Shown here: one piece after another, positions 24,961 to 32,048 of the stretch | Position numbering within the stretch: the first letter of the stretch is position 1 | How the letters are laid out: each line of letters begins with the position of its first letter | From: Bacteroidota bacterium | GTDB lineage: Bacteria > Bacteroidota > Bacteroidia > AKYH767-A > OLB10 | Length of the DNA stretch: 32,312 nucleotides | Reading direction: 5' to 3' | Assembly: GCA_025352785.1 (NCBI GenBank) | Contig: JANXSD010000023.1 | Span: 1-32,312, forward strand | Position numbers and translations under genes: made by a program | The notes under the pieces: generated by a model | The model's input: only the letters and a program-made list of their open reading frames with translations | Databases searched by the model: none | What the model was told of the DNA's origin: nothing

Positions 24961-25401
24961 TTATTCTATTTTAGGTAAAGTTAGCTTGTATGATTCTGTT
25001 ATCATTGGACTATCACGTAATCCAATGATAGCTTGCTCATAATGATATTCAGAAATAATTCCTTCATAGGAAATGAGCTCAGCCAAACACATCGTTCTAA
25101 AATCTTCGATACTATATTTTACAGGAAGGGTATTACAATCAATGTAAGTGTCCTTATTAAGTTTATTGCCACTATCTGGTGATATCCAAACTAAAGTTGA
25201 TCCTGGAAGATCTCTACTTTCATTAAATTTTTTTCGTTTCTCATATTGTGAAGTACAGCAAACTAGATGAACAGATGAGTTATCAAAAATATTTACAACA
25301 ATAAAATAATGATTGTCTATTGATTTAATTTGAGAACTCGAAAAGTTGTAAATTTTTTTTAATGCAATGGCATCAATAAAAGCATCGCATTTTGCTGACA
25401 T
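24961..25401 (-). CDS. candidate PemK/MazF-like toxin of a Panacea module
   Basis: A 146-residue cytoplasmic protein. The strand HYFIVVNIF (about residues 31-39), then LVCCTSQ (47-53), then STLVWISPDSGN (68-79), LNKDTYIDCNTL (81-92) and SIEDF (97-101) lie in the order of the strands of PemK/MazF-type mRNA interferases (vVls... plTs ... L.kds.v.cdqi). No exact catalytic pair could be fixed, so this family assignment is a weak inference. The context supports it more strongly: its ATG is 3 nt after the stop of a Panacea-domain protein, which is the antitoxin half of many unrelated toxin pairs. Both genes share one promoter. No regulator or mobile element is next to them. Confidence 0.72.
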   Translation of the reverse strand: MSAKCDAFIDAIALKKIYNFSSSQIKSIDNHYFIVVNIFDNSSVHLVCCTSQYEKRKKFNESRDLPGSTLVWISPDSGNKLNKDTYIDCNTLPVKYSIEDFRTMCLAELISYEGIISEYHYEQAIIGLRDSPMITESYKLTLPKIE

Positions 25402-25404
25402 CGT

Positions 25405-25980
25405 TTAACAAATTCCCTTAAAGTATTCTTGTGAATCACTTAAGAACTCTTCTTCTTGATTAAAAATCGTATCATTATCCTCTGTAGGATTAAGGAAAAA
25501 ATCAGCATAATTCATTTGATACCTTCCTCCATTCTCAACAAGACTTTGAAATTTTTTCCATTCGGGATATTTGTGTGAAATATCGGAAAGCTCAAATTGA
25601 TCGTATTTATGAAAATCAGAATAAACTTTATTCATAACATCAATATCAGTTTTTGAAAAAACATTTTCTTGAACAAATGCTTTAGAAAAAACAACAAGTC
25701 CTTCTAAACTAAGATGAGTATTTCTATAAATTATTTCCCATTCCTCTTCTAATACTCCTTCAACAATGTTTTTTGTAACAGATGGTACAGGACCAAGCTT
25801 CATAGCAAAATAAACATCATTAACTATAGGTCTTCCGTAGATTCTTAAATGTAATCTTTCAGAAAGCCATATTAATTTTAAAACCTTCATTTTATTTATC
25901 TTACCACCTTCTTTTGTGGCAAAAAAATTCAATGCTTGTGTAGCCTTCTTAAAATCAAAACCAAGTATTGAGATTGACAT
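25405..25980 (-). CDS. Panacea-domain protein (DUF4065), candidate antitoxin
   Basis: A 191-residue protein. The Panacea (DUF4065, SocA-like) domain covers about residues 12-150, with the typical run KINKMKVLKLIWLSERLHL then YGRPIVNDVYFAMKLGPVPS. Known family fact: Panacea domains neutralise many unrelated toxins by direct binding, and the adjacent gene is often the toxin. The tail beyond residue 150 (acidic, PTEDNDTIFNQEEEF) is not part of the core and may contact the partner. It is the first gene of the pair and is 3 nt from the next. The promoter -7 element ends 5 nt before the ATG, so the mRNA seems leaderless. Confidence 0.85.
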   Translation of the reverse strand: MSISILGFDFKKATQALNFFATKEGGKINKMKVLKLIWLSERLHLRIYGRPIVNDVYFAMKLGPVPSVTKNIVEGVLEEEWEIIYRNTHLSLEGLVVFSKAFVQENVFSKTDIDVMNKVYSDFHKYDQFELSDISHKYPEWKKFQSLVENGGRYQMNYADFFLNPTEDNDTIFNQEEEFLSDSQEYFKGIC

Positions 25981-25985
25981 ATGAA

Positions 25986-26016
25986 CAAAGTTAAACTATT
26001 ACACAAACGAAAGCAA
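25986..26016 (-). promoter_or_regulatory. promoter of the Panacea module, leaderless-type
   Basis: On the minus strand TTG (26014-26016), 20 nt, then TAACTTTG (25986-25993). Only TTCAT separates it from the ATG, so transcription would start at or inside the start codon. Confidence 0.55.
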
Positions 26017-26259
26017 CATAAAAATGTTTTATTTAAAATAAATTTACATTACAGTGGTTCTAACGTTAAGGTACATGAATAAAATCCTATGCTACATAAT
26101 ATTTTCAATCTAAATTCCAAAAATGGGATTGATTTTAAAATTAAAAGTAAACTGAATTAACACTAAAATCTAAATCATCATATTCAACAGGGATAAGGAT
26201 TGGAGTGAGGTCTTGGGGTTGCAAGAGGTGGTTAAAAGTTGGTAAAGAATCCCCCCCCT

Positions 26260-27057
26260 TTACAACGCTCCTTTAATCTCTTTCATCTCCGACTCAACGC
26301 GTTCGATACGTTTTAAAATTTGATCTTTCTGCCAATATTGTTCTGGGATTTCGCTGCTGATATAATTGCAGAATTTCCAAACTTCACGTACTTCGTTTAC
26401 TGCAACTTCGTACGAATCAAAAGAAGGATTTAATGATTTCAATAAAACATTTTTCTTCTTCTTAATCTGATTGTATGCAAGCTTAAAAACAATTCCTTCA
26501 TCCTGTGTTAAAAAGATATATGCATCACCATCTTTAATATCATAAAAATTTTCGACGTACTCACCAATCACCCAACTCTTATCGGGAATGGGAAGCATGG
26601 AGTCGCCAGTGATTTGAAACATACGGTACTTACGTTCATTGAATAAAATCGGCAATTGAAATGTTGGGAGTTGCTTAATGAAATCAGGATCGGCAAAACC
26701 ATTTTTATAACCCGCTTTCGCTTTGATGGGAACTACTTCGATATTCTCTTTGTTGTTGCTATCAACTGTTGTTGCAAGCACACGTAAGCGCGCTCCAGTA
26801 ACAAAAACATCATGGCCTCTTTCCAACTCCGACAATTGAAATTCCGATAGCTGTGTAAGATCCATCTTCACAAGCGTATCAATTGTTAAGCGAAAATATT
26901 TGGAGAAAGAAAGCAATGCCTCGAGCGTTGGATTTACCACACTCCCATTTTCATAACTGTTAAAGGTAGAGCGACTAATTCCGAGTTCTCCGGCGATCAT
27001 GTCCTGCGTGAGTTTGCGTCGCTGCCTAAGAAGTTTAATGTTGCTGTTAAAAGACAT
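26260..27057 (-). CDS. LexA-like repressor (XRE HTH + S24 peptidase)
   Basis: A 265-residue regulator. Residues 6-62 are a Cro/C1-type HTH (LRQRRKLTQDMIAGELGISRSTFNSYENG). Residues about 105-235 are an S24 domain: the cleavage site Ala115-Gly116 in KAKAGYKNGF, the catalytic Ser153 in TGDSMLP, and the Lys192 in VFKLA. A short coiled tail (240-265) follows. By analogy with LexA and CI, RecA-triggered self-cleavage would lift repression. Divergent from dinB with 247 bp between the starts, it is the likely repressor of the polymerase cassette and of itself. It is not a canonical LexA, whose HTH is winged; XRE-S24 forms are common in Bacteroidota. No terminator is seen. Confidence 0.88.
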   Translation of the reverse strand: MSFNSNIKLLRQRRKLTQDMIAGELGISRSTFNSYENGSVVNPTLEALLSFSKYFRLTIDTLVKMDLTQLSEFQLSELERGHDVFVTGARLRVLATTVDSNNKENIEVVPIKAKAGYKNGFADPDFIKQLPTFQLPILFNERKYRMFQITGDSMLPIPDKSWVIGEYVENFYDIKDGDAYIFLTQDEGIVFKLAYNQIKKKKNVLLKSLNPSFDSYEVAVNEVREVWKFCNYISSEIPEQYWQKDQILKRIERVESEMKEIKGAL

Positions 27058-27304
27058 GGTTATGGATTTTTAAAGAGGCTTTTTTCGAGTTTTGAGAAGG
27101 CAAAGAAGAGACAATTTGTATTAGGCGGAGGTTATCAACAGAAAAAACGGGGCTTAGAAAAGATTTTTTACAGATGATTATCAGGGTGTTAGGAGGTTTT
27201 TAATGAAATGGATTTGTTTATATCATAGTATTAATGCTTATATTACAGTCATTCGTTTTGACTATAATACGATCAAAGATAAAAACTCTAAACGAATTCT
27301 CCAA
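27058..27304. other. divergent control region of the mutagenesis cassette
   Basis: The region holds the presumed operators. A weak inverted repeat, ATAGTATTA (27225-27233) and TAATACGAT (27265-27273; 8 of 9 pair), and a TTTTG near 27256 are the only elements noticed. AGGAGG at 27191-27196 lies 6 nt before an in-frame ATG at 27203, which would give dinB a 34-residue extension. No TAnnTTTG element was found for either gene. Confidence 0.35.
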
Positions 27305-28534
27305 ATGCTAACCAACGCCAACCGTACAATTGTTCACATGGATCTCGACAGCTTCTTCGTTTCGGTTTCCCGATTGGATGAGCCGAAGTTAATCGGAAAG
27401 CCGGTGATTGTTGGTGGGTCTGGCGATCGTGGGGTGGTGGCCGCTTGTAGCTATGAAGCACGTGCGTATGGTGTTCACTCTGCAATGCCTATACGGATGG
27501 CACGAAAACTTTGTCCGGATGCCATCATTGTGCGTGGTGACTTCGAACGTTACAGTTATTATTCAGAGATGGTAACAAGTATTGTACGCGAAAAAGTTCC
27601 TGTGTATGAGAAGTCATCCATCGATGAGTTTTATATCGACATGAGTGGGATGGATCGTTTTTATGGATGTTATGATTATGCTACGGAATTGCGAAAGAGT
27701 ATCACGAAAGAAACGGGCTTACCCATTTCGTTTGGCTTATCACAAAATAAAACAGTTTCGAAAGTTGCTACCAACGAAGCAAAGCCCAACGGACAAATGC
27801 AAATTGATCGTGGCACAGAAAAAACATTTCTTGCTCCGCTCTCCATAAAAAAAATTCCGATGGTGGGTGAAAAAACATACACGCTGTTGCGAAGTATGGG
27901 CGTTGAAAAAATTGTAACACTGCAACTGATGCCTGTAGAATTATTACAACAGGTATTAGGAGAAAATGGTTTAGTGATTTGGAAAAAAGCAAATGGATTA
28001 GATAATTCTCCTGTAGAACCTTATTCGGAACGCAAGTCGATTTCTACAGAAGAAACATTTGAGCAAGACACGATTGATGTAACGTATTTAAAAGCTTTGA
28101 TTGTAAAGATGAGTGAGAAGCTTGCATTTCAGTTACGTTCAGAAAAGAAATTGACAGCTTGTGTGAGTGTAAAATTACGTTATTCCAATTTCGATACACA
28201 TACCGTGCAAGCACGAATTCCTTATTCGTCATCTGATCATACGTTAATAAGTCGTGCAAAAGAATTGTTTGAAAAACTGTATGAACGTCGAATGTTAGTG
28301 CGGTTATTAGGAATTCGTTTTAGTCATTTGGTGGGTGGAGGTCATCAGATTAATTTATTTGATGATTCAGAAGAGATGATTAATCTGTATCAAGCAATGG
28401 ATAAGATGCGAATGCGCTACGGCGATACTGCTGTGCAAAGAGCGATAGGTACTGATTTAGTTTGTAGAACCTTTAATCCATTTAATGGGCAAACATTAAG
28501 TCCTGTCCCACTAACTATTAAAAATGAAAAATAG
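27305..28534 (+). CDS. dinB: DNA polymerase IV (DinB, Y family)
   Basis: An error-prone polymerase for translesion synthesis, 409 residues. The catalytic Asp13 is in HMDLDSFFVS, and Asp107-Glu108 are in SSIDEF. The steric and fingers motif ACSYEARAYGVHSAMP follows the usual order. The HhH region (GEKTYTLLRSMGV) and little finger are complete. QINLF near the end is a beta-clamp-binding pentapeptide. The start at 27305 places the first catalytic Asp as in the family; an ATG at 27203 with a good Shine-Dalgarno sequence is in frame and cannot be ruled out. It is divergent from the S24 repressor and is followed by a 48-residue ORF and dnaE, as in a damage-inducible cassette. The last codons lie in a duplicated 35-bp sequence. 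Confidence 0.94.
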   Translation: MLTNANRTIVHMDLDSFFVSVSRLDEPKLIGKPVIVGGSGDRGVVAACSYEARAYGVHSAMPIRMARKLCPDAIIVRGDFERYSYYSEMVTSIVREKVPVYEKSSIDEFYIDMSGMDRFYGCYDYATELRKSITKETGLPISFGLSQNKTVSKVATNEAKPNGQMQIDRGTEKTFLAPLSIKKIPMVGEKTYTLLRSMGVEKIVTLQLMPVELLQQVLGENGLVIWKKANGLDNSPVEPYSERKSISTEETFEQDTIDVTYLKALIVKMSEKLAFQLRSEKKLTACVSVKLRYSNFDTHTVQARIPYSSSDHTLISRAKELFEKLYERRMLVRLLGIRFSHLVGGGHQINLFDDSEEMINLYQAMDKMRMRYGDTAVQRAIGTDLVCRTFNPFNGQTLSPVPLTIKNEK

Positions 28535-28585
28535 TGTATTACAGCTTCCGCTAACTATTAAAAATAAAAAATAGTGTATTACAGC
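28511..28585. repeat. tandem duplication of 35 bp at the end of dinB
   Basis: CTAACTATTAAAAATGAAAA begins a 35-bp sequence at 28511-28545 that recurs with one change at 28551-28585 after a 5-nt spacer. Each copy holds ACTATT and AATAGT arms. Copy 1 contains the dinB stop (28532-28534). Confidence 0.85.
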
Positions 28586-28637
28586 GATGAACAATGCTTC
28601 ATCACAACAGAAAAAAAACAATTAAAAAATAAATAGT

Positions 28638-28784
28638 ATGGACATCGTTGATTCAATTCTCTTCTTGTTTAGGTACACTCCATTGTTTGTATTGGTTGTT
28701 ATGACCTTCATGCTCTTGTATATGCAAGTACGCGAAGCACGTGACAGAAATACGTCGCATACGTATAGAAAAAATTTAAAATGA
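28638..28784 (+). CDS. 48-residue one-span membrane protein between dinB and dnaE
   Basis: ATG at 28638, TGA ending at 28784. The product begins MDIVDSILFLF, has one hydrophobic segment (residues about 7-29, FLFRYTPLFVLVVMTFMLLYM) and a basic tail (VREARDRNTSHTYRKNLK), so the C-terminus should face the cytoplasm. There is no cleavable signal peptide. It lies 103 nt after dinB and 150 nt before dnaE in the same direction, so it is likely co-transcribed with the polymerases. The clean membrane segment and positive tail favour a real gene, but short AT-rich ORFs of this kind can arise by chance. I know of no named family. Confidence 0.5.
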   Translation: MDIVDSILFLFRYTPLFVLVVMTFMLLYMQVREARDRNTSHTYRKNLK

Positions 28785-28817
28785 TACTGTTTTGCTTTTC
28801 GGGTTATGGGTTGACAC

Positions 28818-28856
28818 TCCCCCTCTTTCTTGGTGATTATCGAGACAAGAGGGGGA
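28818..28856 (+). promoter_or_regulatory. 10-bp hairpin in front of dnaE, attenuator candidate
   Basis: TCCCCCTCTT (28818-28827) and AAGAGGGGGA (28847-28856) pair exactly over 10 bp with a 19-nt loop. No T run follows, so it is not a standard terminator. It lies 78 nt before the dnaE start and could limit read-through or affect translation. Confidence 0.4.
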
Positions 28857-28934
28857 ACCGTCGGATTAAAACGGGAATTATTTTTATCCAAAAGCAATAA
28901 GAAATGATTGTTTGCTTAACCTGTTGTTCTACTC

Positions 28935-31900
28935 ATGTATCTCAATTGCCATACGCGTTTCAGCTTTCATTACGGAGTACTTTCTGTAGAAGAATTATTG
29001 GAGGAAGCGCAACGTTGCGGAATTCATAAACTTGTACTTACGGATATTAATAATACTTCTGCCGTATTAGATTTTATTCGCTTAGCACCGAAATACGAGA
29101 TAGAACCTGTTGTTGGAATTGAATTTCGAAGAGGTGATAAATTGCAGTTTATCGGTATTGCTCGCAACAATGATGGCTTTGAAGAACTCAATCGTTTTCT
29201 TTCGGATTGCTTAGCAGAAGGTGCTGAACATGGCGAAAGTTCTGGCAATCGTGATGCAATAGTTCCTGATCGTGCTCCCGCTTTTCAAAATGCATGGGTG
29301 ATTTATCCGATGGAGAAGGAACACACGAGTTCGGATCAACAAGCACAACCCGCTTTAAGTATGCATAAAGCAAATTTAGGTGTTGCAAATTCAGACCTTC
29401 ATCACCATGAATTTAATGGTAAATATATTCTTGAAGTTACTAAGAAAAAGAAAAATGCTTCTGCACAACGTAGCGTAAATTTACACGACAATGAATTTAT
29501 TGGCATTCGTCAGGAGGAATTACTTCGTTTGCCTTTTTCTCGATATAAAAATCTTCTCCATCGTTGTGTGCTGCTTTGCCCAGTTACCTTTAGGAATAAA
29601 CTCGATTTTAATATTCATCGTTTATTAACAGCCATCGGACATAACACTTTGCTTAGTAAAGTAGCAACAACTTCTATTGCAAATCCCGATGAGATAATGT
29701 ATCCTGAAGCGCATCTGTTAGAGCGATACAATTATTTTCAGCAGCTAATCATCAACACAAAAATGTTACTTCATGAAAGTAGTATTAACTTTACTTTTCA
29801 TGAATCAAAAAATAAAAAAACATATACCGAAACTTCGAAAGATGATATTGAACTTCTAAGAAGTGAAACAGAAAAAGGTTTGCTGTATCGTTACGGAAAA
29901 AAAATTAACAAGACCATCCGTTTACGTGCTGAGAAAGAAATAACGATGATTCAAGATTATGGATTTTCGTCATACTTTTTGATTAACTGGAACATCATTA
30001 ATTATGCACAGCACAAAAATTATTTTTATGTTGGACGAGGAAGCGGAGCGAATAGTATTGTAGCGTATGCACTTCGTATTACAGATGTAGATCCGATTGA
30101 ATTAGATTTATATTTTGAACGATTTATTAATTCGTATCGCAAAAATCCGCCCGACTTCGACTTAGATTTTTCATGGAAGGATCGTGAGGATATTACACAT
30201 CATATTTTTAATAGCTTCGGCAAAGATCGTGTTGCATTGCTCGCCACCTACAGTACGTATCAACGTAAGGCGGTTGTGCGCGAACTGGGAAAAGTTTTCG
30301 GATTACCGAAAGAAGAAATTGATGGATTATTTAATGTGCATAAACAATTCGAGAACAACGATCAAATTTCTGGATTGATTCAACGCTACAGTGTTCGGTT
30401 GCAAGATTTTCCGCATCATTTAAGTATTCACGCAGGAGGAATTCTTATCAGTGAAAAACCAATTACCTGTTATACTGCGCTCAATCATCCACCGAAAGGA
30501 TTTCCTGTTACGCAATTCAGTATGTTGGAATCAGAAGATATTGGGTTGTACAAATTCGATATTTTGAGTCAGCGTGGATTAGGACATATTCGCGATACAG
30601 TTGACATCGTAAAAAAAAATCGTGGGATAAAAATTGATGCGCATGCGATTGGTGAATTCAAGAAAGATGAGAAAATAAAAAAATTAATTCGTGAAGGAAA
30701 ATGCATAGGATGCTTTTATGTAGAAAGTCCTGGTATGCGGATGTTGTTAACGAAATTACGTGTTGATACTTACATACAATTAGTAGCTGCTAGTTCAATT
30801 ATTCGTCCGGGCGTAGCGAGTAGTGGCATGATGCGCGAATACATTGTTCGTACGCGAGATAAATCGAAGATTACGTATATCCATCCGGTAATGGAAGAGT
30901 TGATGGAGGAGACGTATGGCATCATGGTGTACCAGGAAGATGTAATTAAAGTAGCGCATCACTTTGCGGGATTAGATTTAAGTGAAGCAGATGTATTGCG
31001 AAGAGGCATGAGTGGGAAGTTTAGATCACGCGAAGAGTTCCAAAAGATTAAAGACAAATTTTTCGAGAATTGCAATGCAAAAGGATATGAAGAACGAATC
31101 ACAACAGAAGTGTGGAGACAGATTGAAAGCTTTGCAGGATATTCATTTTCCAAAGGCCATTCAGCATCGTATGCGGTGGAAAGCTATCAAAGTCTTTTTT
31201 TGAAAGCACATTTTCCATTAGAGTTTATGGTGGGTGTGATAAATAATTTTGGAGGCTTCTATAACACTGAATTTTATGTTCATGAAGCAAGAATGTCGGG
31301 AGCAATAATTCATCCACCAGATATTAATAAAAGTGATTACGTCACGAGTATTATCGGTAATGAAATTTATTTGGGCTTTATTCACATGTCGACCTTCGAA
31401 CAAAATGTTGCGCATCGCATCCTCCACGAAAGAGAAACGAATGGTGATTATTTAGATCTAAAAGATTTCATGAATCGTATCAGTATTGAAATAGAATTAC
31501 TGCGAATATTAATTCGCATCGGTGCATTTCATTTTACGGGTCGTACGAAGAAAGAATTACTTTGGGATATTCATGCGCACTTAGGACATGCACGAAAAAC
31601 AGAAATTCGTAAAGAGCTTTTTGATGATACGAGAAAAAAATTCGAGCTTCCAGAATTATATCATCACAAATTTGATGATGCACTGGATGAGATTGAGATA
31701 TTAGGTTTCCCCTTACTAAATCCTTTCGAATTAATAAAGGATCAAGAGGAATTACAAAAACCATTTCTTGCTGTAGATATGCAATCTCATATTGGTAAAC
31801 AAATTGTGATCATCGGATATCTCGTAACGATAAAACCAACACGTACTCGTAAGGGAGAAAGTATGTCGTTTGGATGTTTCATCGATTTGCACGGAAATTA

Positions 31901-32048
31901 TTTTGACACTACTCATTTTCCGAATGCGATAAAATTATTTCCTTTTCGTGGAAGAGGATGTTATAAGATTTATGGAAAGGTTGATGAAGAGTTTGACTTT
32001 TGCAGTATCATCGTTTCAAAGATGGAGAAGTTAGTGACGAATTTCTAG
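28935..32048 (+). CDS. error-prone DnaE2-like DNA polymerase III alpha subunit
   Basis: A 1037-residue C-family polymerase. The catalytic palm holds PPDFDLDFSW (405-414; Asp407, Asp409, Asp411 with the following KDRED), VGRGSGANSIVAYALRITDVDP (366-387) and the third Asp at 542 in YKFDILSQRG. The N-terminal PHP domain is degenerate: its first motif reads NCHTRFSFHYG and the LTDHnn motif reads LTDINN, so the usual metal-ion cluster is incomplete. An atypical low-complexity insertion (about residues 94-165) follows. The OB domain near the end (MSFGCFIDLHGNYFDT) is as in DnaE2. By length, degenerate PHP and its place beside dinB and an S24 repressor it is the damage-tolerance form and not the replicative enzyme. 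No ImuA or ImuB is present here. Confidence 0.92.
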   Translation: MYLNCHTRFSFHYGVLSVEELLEEAQRCGIHKLVLTDINNTSAVLDFIRLAPKYEIEPVVGIEFRRGDKLQFIGIARNNDGFEELNRFLSDCLAEGAEHGESSGNRDAIVPDRAPAFQNAWVIYPMEKEHTSSDQQAQPALSMHKANLGVANSDLHHHEFNGKYILEVTKKKKNASAQRSVNLHDNEFIGIRQEELLRLPFSRYKNLLHRCVLLCPVTFRNKLDFNIHRLLTAIGHNTLLSKVATTSIANPDEIMYPEAHLLERYNYFQQLIINTKMLLHESSINFTFHESKNKKTYTETSKDDIELLRSETEKGLLYRYGKKINKTIRLRAEKEITMIQDYGFSSYFLINWNIINYAQHKNYFYVGRGSGANSIVAYALRITDVDPIELDLYFERFINSYRKNPPDFDLDFSWKDREDITHHIFNSFGKDRVALLATYSTYQRKAVVRELGKVFGLPKEEIDGLFNVHKQFENNDQISGLIQRYSVRLQDFPHHLSIHAGGILISEKPITCYTALNHPPKGFPVTQFSMLESEDIGLYKFDILSQRGLGHIRDTVDIVKKNRGIKIDAHAIGEFKKDEKIKKLIREGKCIGCFYVESPGMRMLLTKLRVDTYIQLVAASSIIRPGVASSGMMREYIVRTRDKSKITYIHPVMEELMEETYGIMVYQEDVIKVAHHFAGLDLSEADVLRRGMSGKFRSREEFQKIKDKFFENCNAKGYEERITTEVWRQIESFAGYSFSKGHSASYAVESYQSLFLKAHFPLEFMVGVINNFGGFYNTEFYVHEARMSGAIIHPPDINKSDYVTSIIGNEIYLGFIHMSTFEQNVAHRILHERETNGDYLDLKDFMNRISIEIELLRILIRIGAFHFTGRTKKELLWDIHAHLGHARKTEIRKELFDDTRKKFELPELYHHKFDDALDEIEILGFPLLNPFELIKDQEELQKPFLAVDMQSHIGKQIVIIGYLVTIKPTRTRKGESMSFGCFIDLHGNYFDTTHFPNAIKLFPFRGRGCYKIYGKVDEEFDFCSIIVSKMEKLVTNF

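Follow-up and report, generated by a model that had tools for sequence, protein, structure and literature searches.

Several small membrane proteins are known to be produced in bacteria after DNA damage. SidA of Caulobacter crescentus, as described in the accessible part of PMC4211646, is a 29-aa SOS-induced inner-membrane division inhibitor that acts on FtsW, and YneA, SosA and ChiZ of Bacillus, Staphylococcus and Mycobacterium are DNA-damage-induced membrane division inhibitors (accessible part of PMC13396833). As far as the available portions of the two papers describe them (PMC13396833, PMC4211646), such small one-span SOS proteins act on FtsW and its partners and restrain septal synthesis. 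DinQ and TisB of Escherichia coli are SOS-regulated peptides of type I toxin-antitoxin loci (available parts of PMC3567139 and PMC11997105), and a section heading on DinQ in PMC3567139 states that SOS induction, filamentation and mutagenesis are not affected. A Bacteroidetes SOS repressor was reported only in 2021; the available part of that paper gives CTAA-N5-TTAG and GGA-N5-TCC as the main operators, together with some diverged palindromes (PMC8565304). In the available main text of PMC8565304 no membrane microprotein was found, and the words "transmembrane" and "hypothetical" are absent. Among the open-access literature matches listed, in the parts accessible, we found neither a Bacteroidetes SOS division inhibitor or SOS membrane effector nor a description of a membrane microprotein before dnaE2.

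Here, we describe a gene for a 48-residue putative membrane microprotein from a Bacteroidota genome, located in a window (the whole stretch of DNA analyzed) of 32,312 nucleotides (Table 1). At the sequence level, the microprotein is conserved and linked to dnaE2, and the operator found with it in relatives is common to dinB and, partly, recA. It resembles SidA in being very small, in having one predicted hydrophobic span and in its probable SOS control, which here is read from operators in relatives; unlike SidA, which is under LexA, it would be governed by an XRE-S24 repressor and is encoded before dnaE2, and the likeness is one of traits rather than of compared sequences. YneA, SosA and ChiZ, compared by description, are likewise small SOS-linked membrane proteins; YneA and ChiZ each contain a LysM domain, for which the microprotein is too small. 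DinQ and TisB share with it SOS regulation (deduced here from operators), tiny size and hydrophobicity, and differ in that our gene precedes a polymerase gene and its product has ten invariant residues in six members. The microprotein is thus a small, testable candidate for an SOS membrane effector in Bacteroidetes, whose gene apparently entered once between an operator and dnaE2.

Table 1. Features of the microprotein locus, in positions of the window.
Feature	Position	Strand	Basis or remark
XRE/HTH_3 + Peptidase_S24 repressor, divergent from dinB	26260..27057	-	domains, catalytic residues
Tandem palindromic SOS-type operator before dinB (GCTTATATTACAGTC ... GACTATAATACGATC, 24-nt spacing)	27236..27274	.	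matrix and pattern scan
dinB, Y-family polymerase	27305..28534	+	domains; likely start
38-nt direct repeat, two copies, start-to-start 40 nt	28508..28585	+	over dinB 3' end and gap
Membrane microprotein gene, 48 aa, predicted single helix (ATG at 28638, TGA ending 28784)	28638..28784	+	ORF call, conservation, hydropathy, model
dnaE2-type DNA polymerase III alpha subunit, 1037 aa (PHP, pol3 alpha, finger, HHH)	28935..32048	+	domains

The small ORF, with the product MDIVDSILFLFRYTPLFVLVVMTFMLLYMQVREARDRNTSHTYRKNLK, is almost certainly a real protein gene, and it is conservation, not length, that settles the matter. The gap between dinB and dnaE2 was modeled by its dinucleotides (first-order Markov); of 2000 random sequences generated in this way, 277 contained an ATG frame of 48 aa or more on the plus strand, so that length alone is unremarkable, and only 8 contained one as long and also as hydrophobic, which is rare. 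Homologues occupy the same place in six relatives, one of them partial, with the full-length ones measuring 37-46 aa, and ten positions are invariant in the six full-length members (M1, D2, D5, R12, Y13, P15, L26, L27, Q30 and E33). A leave-one-out HMM built from five relatives, with the window excluded, retrieved the window ORF with an E-value of 2.6e-14, against 0.7 for the runner-up among the 148 window ORFs; in a set of 350 frames, the window protein as the sole query retrieved the five relatives with E-values from 2.3e-9 to 1.1e-5. In all 21 pairs of homologues pS exceeded pN. The dN/dS ratio was 0.09-0.32 in the five computable pairs, three of these values being rough because dS was above 2, and the remaining 16 pairs were saturated at synonymous sites. 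The best pair, G020 and G012, differed by 8 synonymous changes and 1 non-synonymous change over 46 codons, and differences at codon positions 1, 2 and 3 numbered 254, 127 and 328 of 525 each in 15 pairs. The earlier note had read this frame as a one-span protein, which would fall if the frame were unconserved or free of purifying selection, and had proposed looking for homologues at the same position and for a dN/dS signal; the homologues are present, directly upstream of dnaE2 in five relatives and cut by a contig end in the sixth, and selection on the frame is purifying. A structured RNA in place of a protein was rejected, with no match in Rfam and with the third codon position the most variable. 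None of the six members had a family match in Pfam, NCBIfam or PHROGs at E up to 1 in each, and the PDB sequences gave no match. A phage or plasmid origin was also rejected: tblastn of the 48-aa protein found nothing in either at E up to 1, and PHROGs had no match.

The anatomy of the product bears out the ATG-to-TGA frame with a hydrophobic segment and a basic tail that the earlier note had described. The window microprotein has a single hydrophobic segment (Kyte-Doolittle mean of 2.03 over the best 19 residues) and a tail with a net charge of +4 from residue 30. Among the six full-length members, the tail carries a net charge of +2 to +4 and residues 2-13 a net charge of -1; these latter residues form an amphipathic stretch (moment 0.48-0.55, 6/6 members) that includes D2, D5 and R12 and is followed by Pro15, and a uniform hydrophobic core spans about residues 15-29. 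A single-sequence AlphaFold2 model consists of one helix, residues 3-47, with a mean pLDDT of 84.5, and informs little beyond helicity. By the positive-inside rule, the basic side of a membrane span faces the cytoplasm, and the charge split therefore suggests an N-out/C-in orientation.

The small ORF lies in a gap of 400 nt on the same strand as its two neighbors, 103 nt from the end of dinB and 150 nt before dnaE2. The start of dinB is likely the ATG at 27305, because an in-frame ATG further upstream, at 27203, precedes the operator. Immediately downstream, a 39-aa frame (28781-28900, plus strand) has an ATG that overlaps the microprotein stop (ATGA), and nothing similar was evident among the frames listed for the relatives. 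The order of repressor, dinB, small gene and dnaE2 is shared by the window, G020 and G012, and dinB precedes the small gene in G010 too. In G015, two other long frames separate dinB from the small gene; dinB is found on a different contig in G001 and about 12 kb away in G005, near the repressor gene each time, yet the small gene immediately precedes dnaE2 in both genomes. Hence the description "between dinB and dnaE" holds in the window and has to be amended: the small gene belongs to dnaE2, not to dinB. Its distance to dnaE2 is variable, from about 37 to 390 nt. In G005 (locus L063), where the distance is about 390 nt, repeated units around CTCGACTCCGCTCAATAACC were seen by eye in the first 260 nt.

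The upstream regions of the relatives connect the gene with a DNA-damage regulon. In the relatives, the small gene is preceded by the palindrome GATTGTAATACAATC, and a half-like site lies 24 nt ahead of this palindrome. The operator is of the type GATTGTAWTACAATC and occurs as tandem pairs 23-24 nt apart at the S24, dinB and dnaE2 genes and singly at recA; in genera without the small gene, the S24-repressor promoters contain paired imperfect palindrome copies, mostly 23 nt apart. An operator matrix was built from 16 sites in S24-gene promoters, taken from nine genomes that lack the microprotein, and with it the 300 nt upstream of the small gene were scanned against 200 first-order Markov resamplings (not exact shuffles). 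A tandem operator was found in all six relatives, with scores of 26.4-37.5 that none of the 200 resampled sequences reached in any of them (largest resampled score, 13.2); the test is not fully independent, because it was guided by a palindrome that had initially come to attention in front of the microprotein gene. Between the end of the operator and the small-gene ATG there are 6, 7, 24, 121, 121 and 241 nt in the six relatives, the two shortest distances being those of G015 and G010. When the tandem pattern was sought across nine complete genomes, allowing as many as 3 mismatches, each of the 15 matches fell at a dinB or small gene-dnaE2 site, and the reversed pattern had none; since the pattern was written from those sites, this measures rarity elsewhere and is not an independent discovery. 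In the genome of the window, the dinB operator is the only such match. Applied to the regions upstream of dinB, the matrix gave a positive score for the window (24.9) and for 7 of 10 others and a negative one for 3, including G001, where the pattern scan nevertheless finds a tandem site. The same operator also precedes dnaE2 in some sister genera.

recA was found in 37 of the 42 genomes of the order, and 30 of its promoters were examined. A box that no resampled sequence equalled (0/200) was found in 14 of these, and four more were reached by 1 or 2 of 200; it was absent from 12, including those of the window's own genome (27/200 reach) and of G012 (131/200). Among the five carriers of the microprotein examined, three have the recA box, and in G015, where RecA was identified by Pfam, a single operator site is located upstream. 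Searching genomes for the single palindrome gave 24 loci, nine of which were operator sites already known; of the other 15, 13 were inside an open frame, one was the site upstream of G015 recA, and one lay 20 nt upstream of a frame with no evident link to DNA damage. Such single sites are weak evidence, because reversed-pattern controls gave nearly as many in several genomes.

The divergent gene beside dinB encodes the candidate repressor. Its HTH_3 and S24 domains were found in the window protein and also in that of G020, and the residues for self-cleavage (Ala-Gly, Ser in GDSM, and Lys) are kept in 20 of 20 homologues, so it can be read as a non-canonical LexA type that fits the family described for Bacteroidetes (PMC8565304). 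With the regulons in the available part of that paper, our locus shares a CI-type HTH plus S24 repressor, the dyad-N5-dyad operator layout, predicted control of dinB, a polymerase III alpha homologue and recA, and the presence of at least two palindromes in some promoters; it differs in its operator, which can be written ATTG-N5-CAAT and not CTAA-N5-TTAG or GGA-N5-TCC. In this lineage, the operator probably serves as the SOS box of the XRE-S24 repressor, which we infer to bind it, and SOS-type control of the microprotein in the relatives is very likely.

The window copy is the exception. The region upstream of its own small ORF has no operator, with a score of -8.1 that 183 of 200 resampled sequences equalled or exceeded. 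Read-through from the dinB promoter is likely, because the gene has no operator of its own, is close behind dinB and is separated from it by no terminator-like site; none was found in 28400-29100, which is weak evidence given the 0.7 expected by chance. The microprotein is thus probably transcribed from the operator-bearing dinB promoter, and SOS-type control in the window is likely on the same grounds. Of the earlier idea that the gene could be co-induced on DNA damage and act at the membrane, for example on cell division, the part on control by the damage repressor is well supported for the relatives, by their own operators (6/6), and probable for the window through the dinB operator; induction as such and the action at the membrane stay predictions. 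The 38-nt repeats in front of the gene were considered as a hidden operator and rejected: each copy has ACTATT...AATAGT arms, their TGTATTACA cores score only -1.9, and the 33-nt core is unique to this place, with no other occurrence in the genome at up to 3 mismatches.

The distribution of the gene is narrow. DnaE2 was searched for in 41 genomes, and the frames upstream of dnaE2 were then listed for the resulting loci. Five loci besides that of the window have a small frame with the same motif directly upstream of dnaE2 (G005, G001, G020, G012 and G015); in G010, a contig end cuts the small frame, and the start of dnaE2 is located at a different contig's end. A profile search of 24 family genomes gave these six and the window's own genome at E < 1e-8, the values of the six carriers that are rows of the profile not being independent and G010 not being a row, and all other matches were weak (E >= 0.0188). 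The strong matches lie solely before dnaE2, or at the contig end in G010. Within the 42 genomes of the order, no further one reached an E-value of 0.001 (best other match, 0.0188), nor did any in samples of 395 genomes of the class and 395 of the phylum; the latter two are thin, because the other six carriers were absent from the returns, so that carriers in unsampled genomes are possible, and the six-row alignment used in these wide searches could miss distant relatives. Five genomes from two of the three carrier genera (G017, G018, G021, G022 and G023; 79-92% complete) are uninformative on the dnaE2 link, because no dnaE2 start was found in them, and G013 and G014 have a dnaE2 start and no convincing profile match for the microprotein. 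In a tree of 34 DnaE2 sequences the seven carriers form one clade (FastTree local support 0.996), and the gene is absent from its closest outside neighbors (L009-L014 with L030). Named DnaE2 matches are all from Bacteroidetes, at no more than 54% identity over the full length, with one partial match at 58%, which points to a Bacteroidetes lineage.

Outside the clade, 45 dnaE2 loci were surveyed, 42 of them with the dnaE2 start present. A tandem operator scoring above 18 (scored without resampling) occurs within 500 nt upstream in 10 of the 42, at 0-66 nt from dnaE2 in eight and at 191 and 349 nt in two, and no hydrophobic small frame was listed between operator and dnaE2 in these ten. The other 32 loci have no such operator, and part of them have dinB directly upstream. 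Because operator and dnaE2 stand alone at those ten loci, the microprotein is dispensable for SOS-controlled dnaE2 as such. The simplest reading is that operator-dnaE2 is the older state and that the small gene was inserted or born between them once; its loss in other lineages is possible and requires more events. A bolder version, that the gene was born or captured there in the ancestor of the three genera as a dedicated membrane checkpoint protein on the dnaE2 transcript, appears to us rather unlikely. If it is true, the microprotein has no precedent as an SOS-controlled membrane effector in Bacteroidetes, within the literature searched, and the locus offers a placed example of a gene arising within an SOS leader. 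Other small hydrophobic ORFs upstream of dnaE2 outside the clade do not share the motif by eye. Two Algoriphagus loci (L077 and L090) have a different 47-aa one-span frame (MSLS..WVKNGFPETLANPLHTNMTIVVGTLTIF.VGFGLG) located 370 and 399 nt before dnaE2; the two are alike and, by eye, unrelated to the window protein.

By analogy with SidA, the most likely function of the microprotein is that of an inner-membrane effector with one helix, induced in the SOS response and directed at the divisome, to which we assign a probability of roughly 0.45; division as its target, taken separately, is proposed tentatively. The tandem-operator units encode polymerases and the repressor, with the microprotein as the one other product, which gives it the look of a checkpoint effector, and we place the divisome first because of this and because SOS responses elsewhere use small membrane proteins around FtsW. 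In the clade, an SOS operator would be followed by the microprotein as the first cistron and then by dnaE2, the whole unit being repressed by the XRE-S24 protein. DNA damage would cause self-cleavage of the repressor, so that the microprotein is made together with DnaE2, and DinB would be made from a second operator. The microprotein, inserted N-out/C-in with its 12-residue amphipathic stretch at the outer face, a kink at Pro15 and one span, may then bind and slow a late divisome component (FtsW, FtsI or FtsN), and septation would wait while the error-prone polymerases work, as with SidA, YneA and SosA elsewhere. It would thus be a candidate for a membrane-level response to DNA damage, encoded ahead of the gene for a mutagenic polymerase, in a regulon where tandem-operator units are few. 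DinQ is a caution for a divisome target, because it is an SOS one-span peptide that depolarizes the membrane.

The constant company of dnaE2 can also be explained if the microprotein is a membrane partner of DnaE2, acting as a tether, localizer or activity switch that either recruits the polymerase to a site near the membrane or holds it away from one. The small gene staying with dnaE2 where dinB is not adjacent, and the confinement of strong matches to that position, would fit such a partner, as would DnaE2 residues 127-173, which align in five of the six carrier relatives and break in the non-carriers listed, a pattern that shared ancestry explains too. However, related genera have DnaE2 without the microprotein, and the tail past residue 29 amounts to merely 8 residues in G001 and G015. 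We know of no membrane step of DnaE2, which also counts against this partnership, and we consider it unlikely.

An amphipathic helix under SOS control might instead lower the membrane potential and slow growth in the manner of TisB or DinQ. The size, the single span, the SOS-type operator in relatives and the amphipathic stretch all agree with a depolarizing peptide, and DinQ, an SOS-regulated single-span depolarizer in the accessible part of PMC3567139, provides a precedent. In that same source, however, DinQ is held by the antisense RNA AgrB, whereas no Rfam family was found here in 26000-29200, a check to which an undescribed antisense RNA would be invisible. Six of the ten invariant positions are charged, polar or aromatic (D2, D5, R12, Y13, Q30 and E33), which suggests a specific partner more than a pore, and the gene fronts a polymerase gene rather than standing alone. 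We therefore judge depolarization to be improbable, at slightly lower credence than a DnaE2 partner.

A leader peptide, which would regulate dnaE2 translation in cis and whose product would have no role of its own, would be expected as the first cistron, and the start 6-7 nt past the operator in G015 and G010 is in line with this; the widely varying distance to dnaE2 and the retention of residues over the whole length while synonymous sites drift make it very unlikely. A chance open frame, for which only the frequency of equally long frames in the gap model speaks, is virtually excluded by the conserved sequence and position, the purifying selection and the leave-one-out HMM.

Two observations concern the surroundings of the polymerase genes. 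Detached stretches resembling the C-terminal end of DnaE2 are present on the same contigs as dnaE2 in G012 (C27:16351-16716, residues 912-1031) and G020 (C54:29871-30011, residues 989-1035), one of the two being within a 720-aa open frame. On the minus strand of the window (24961-25980), a Panacea protein (SocA-like antitoxin, PF13274) is directly followed by a 146-aa protein for which neither Pfam nor PADLOC gave a match at E up to 0.01, and the two may form a toxin-antitoxin pair with an undescribed toxin beside the SOS cassette.
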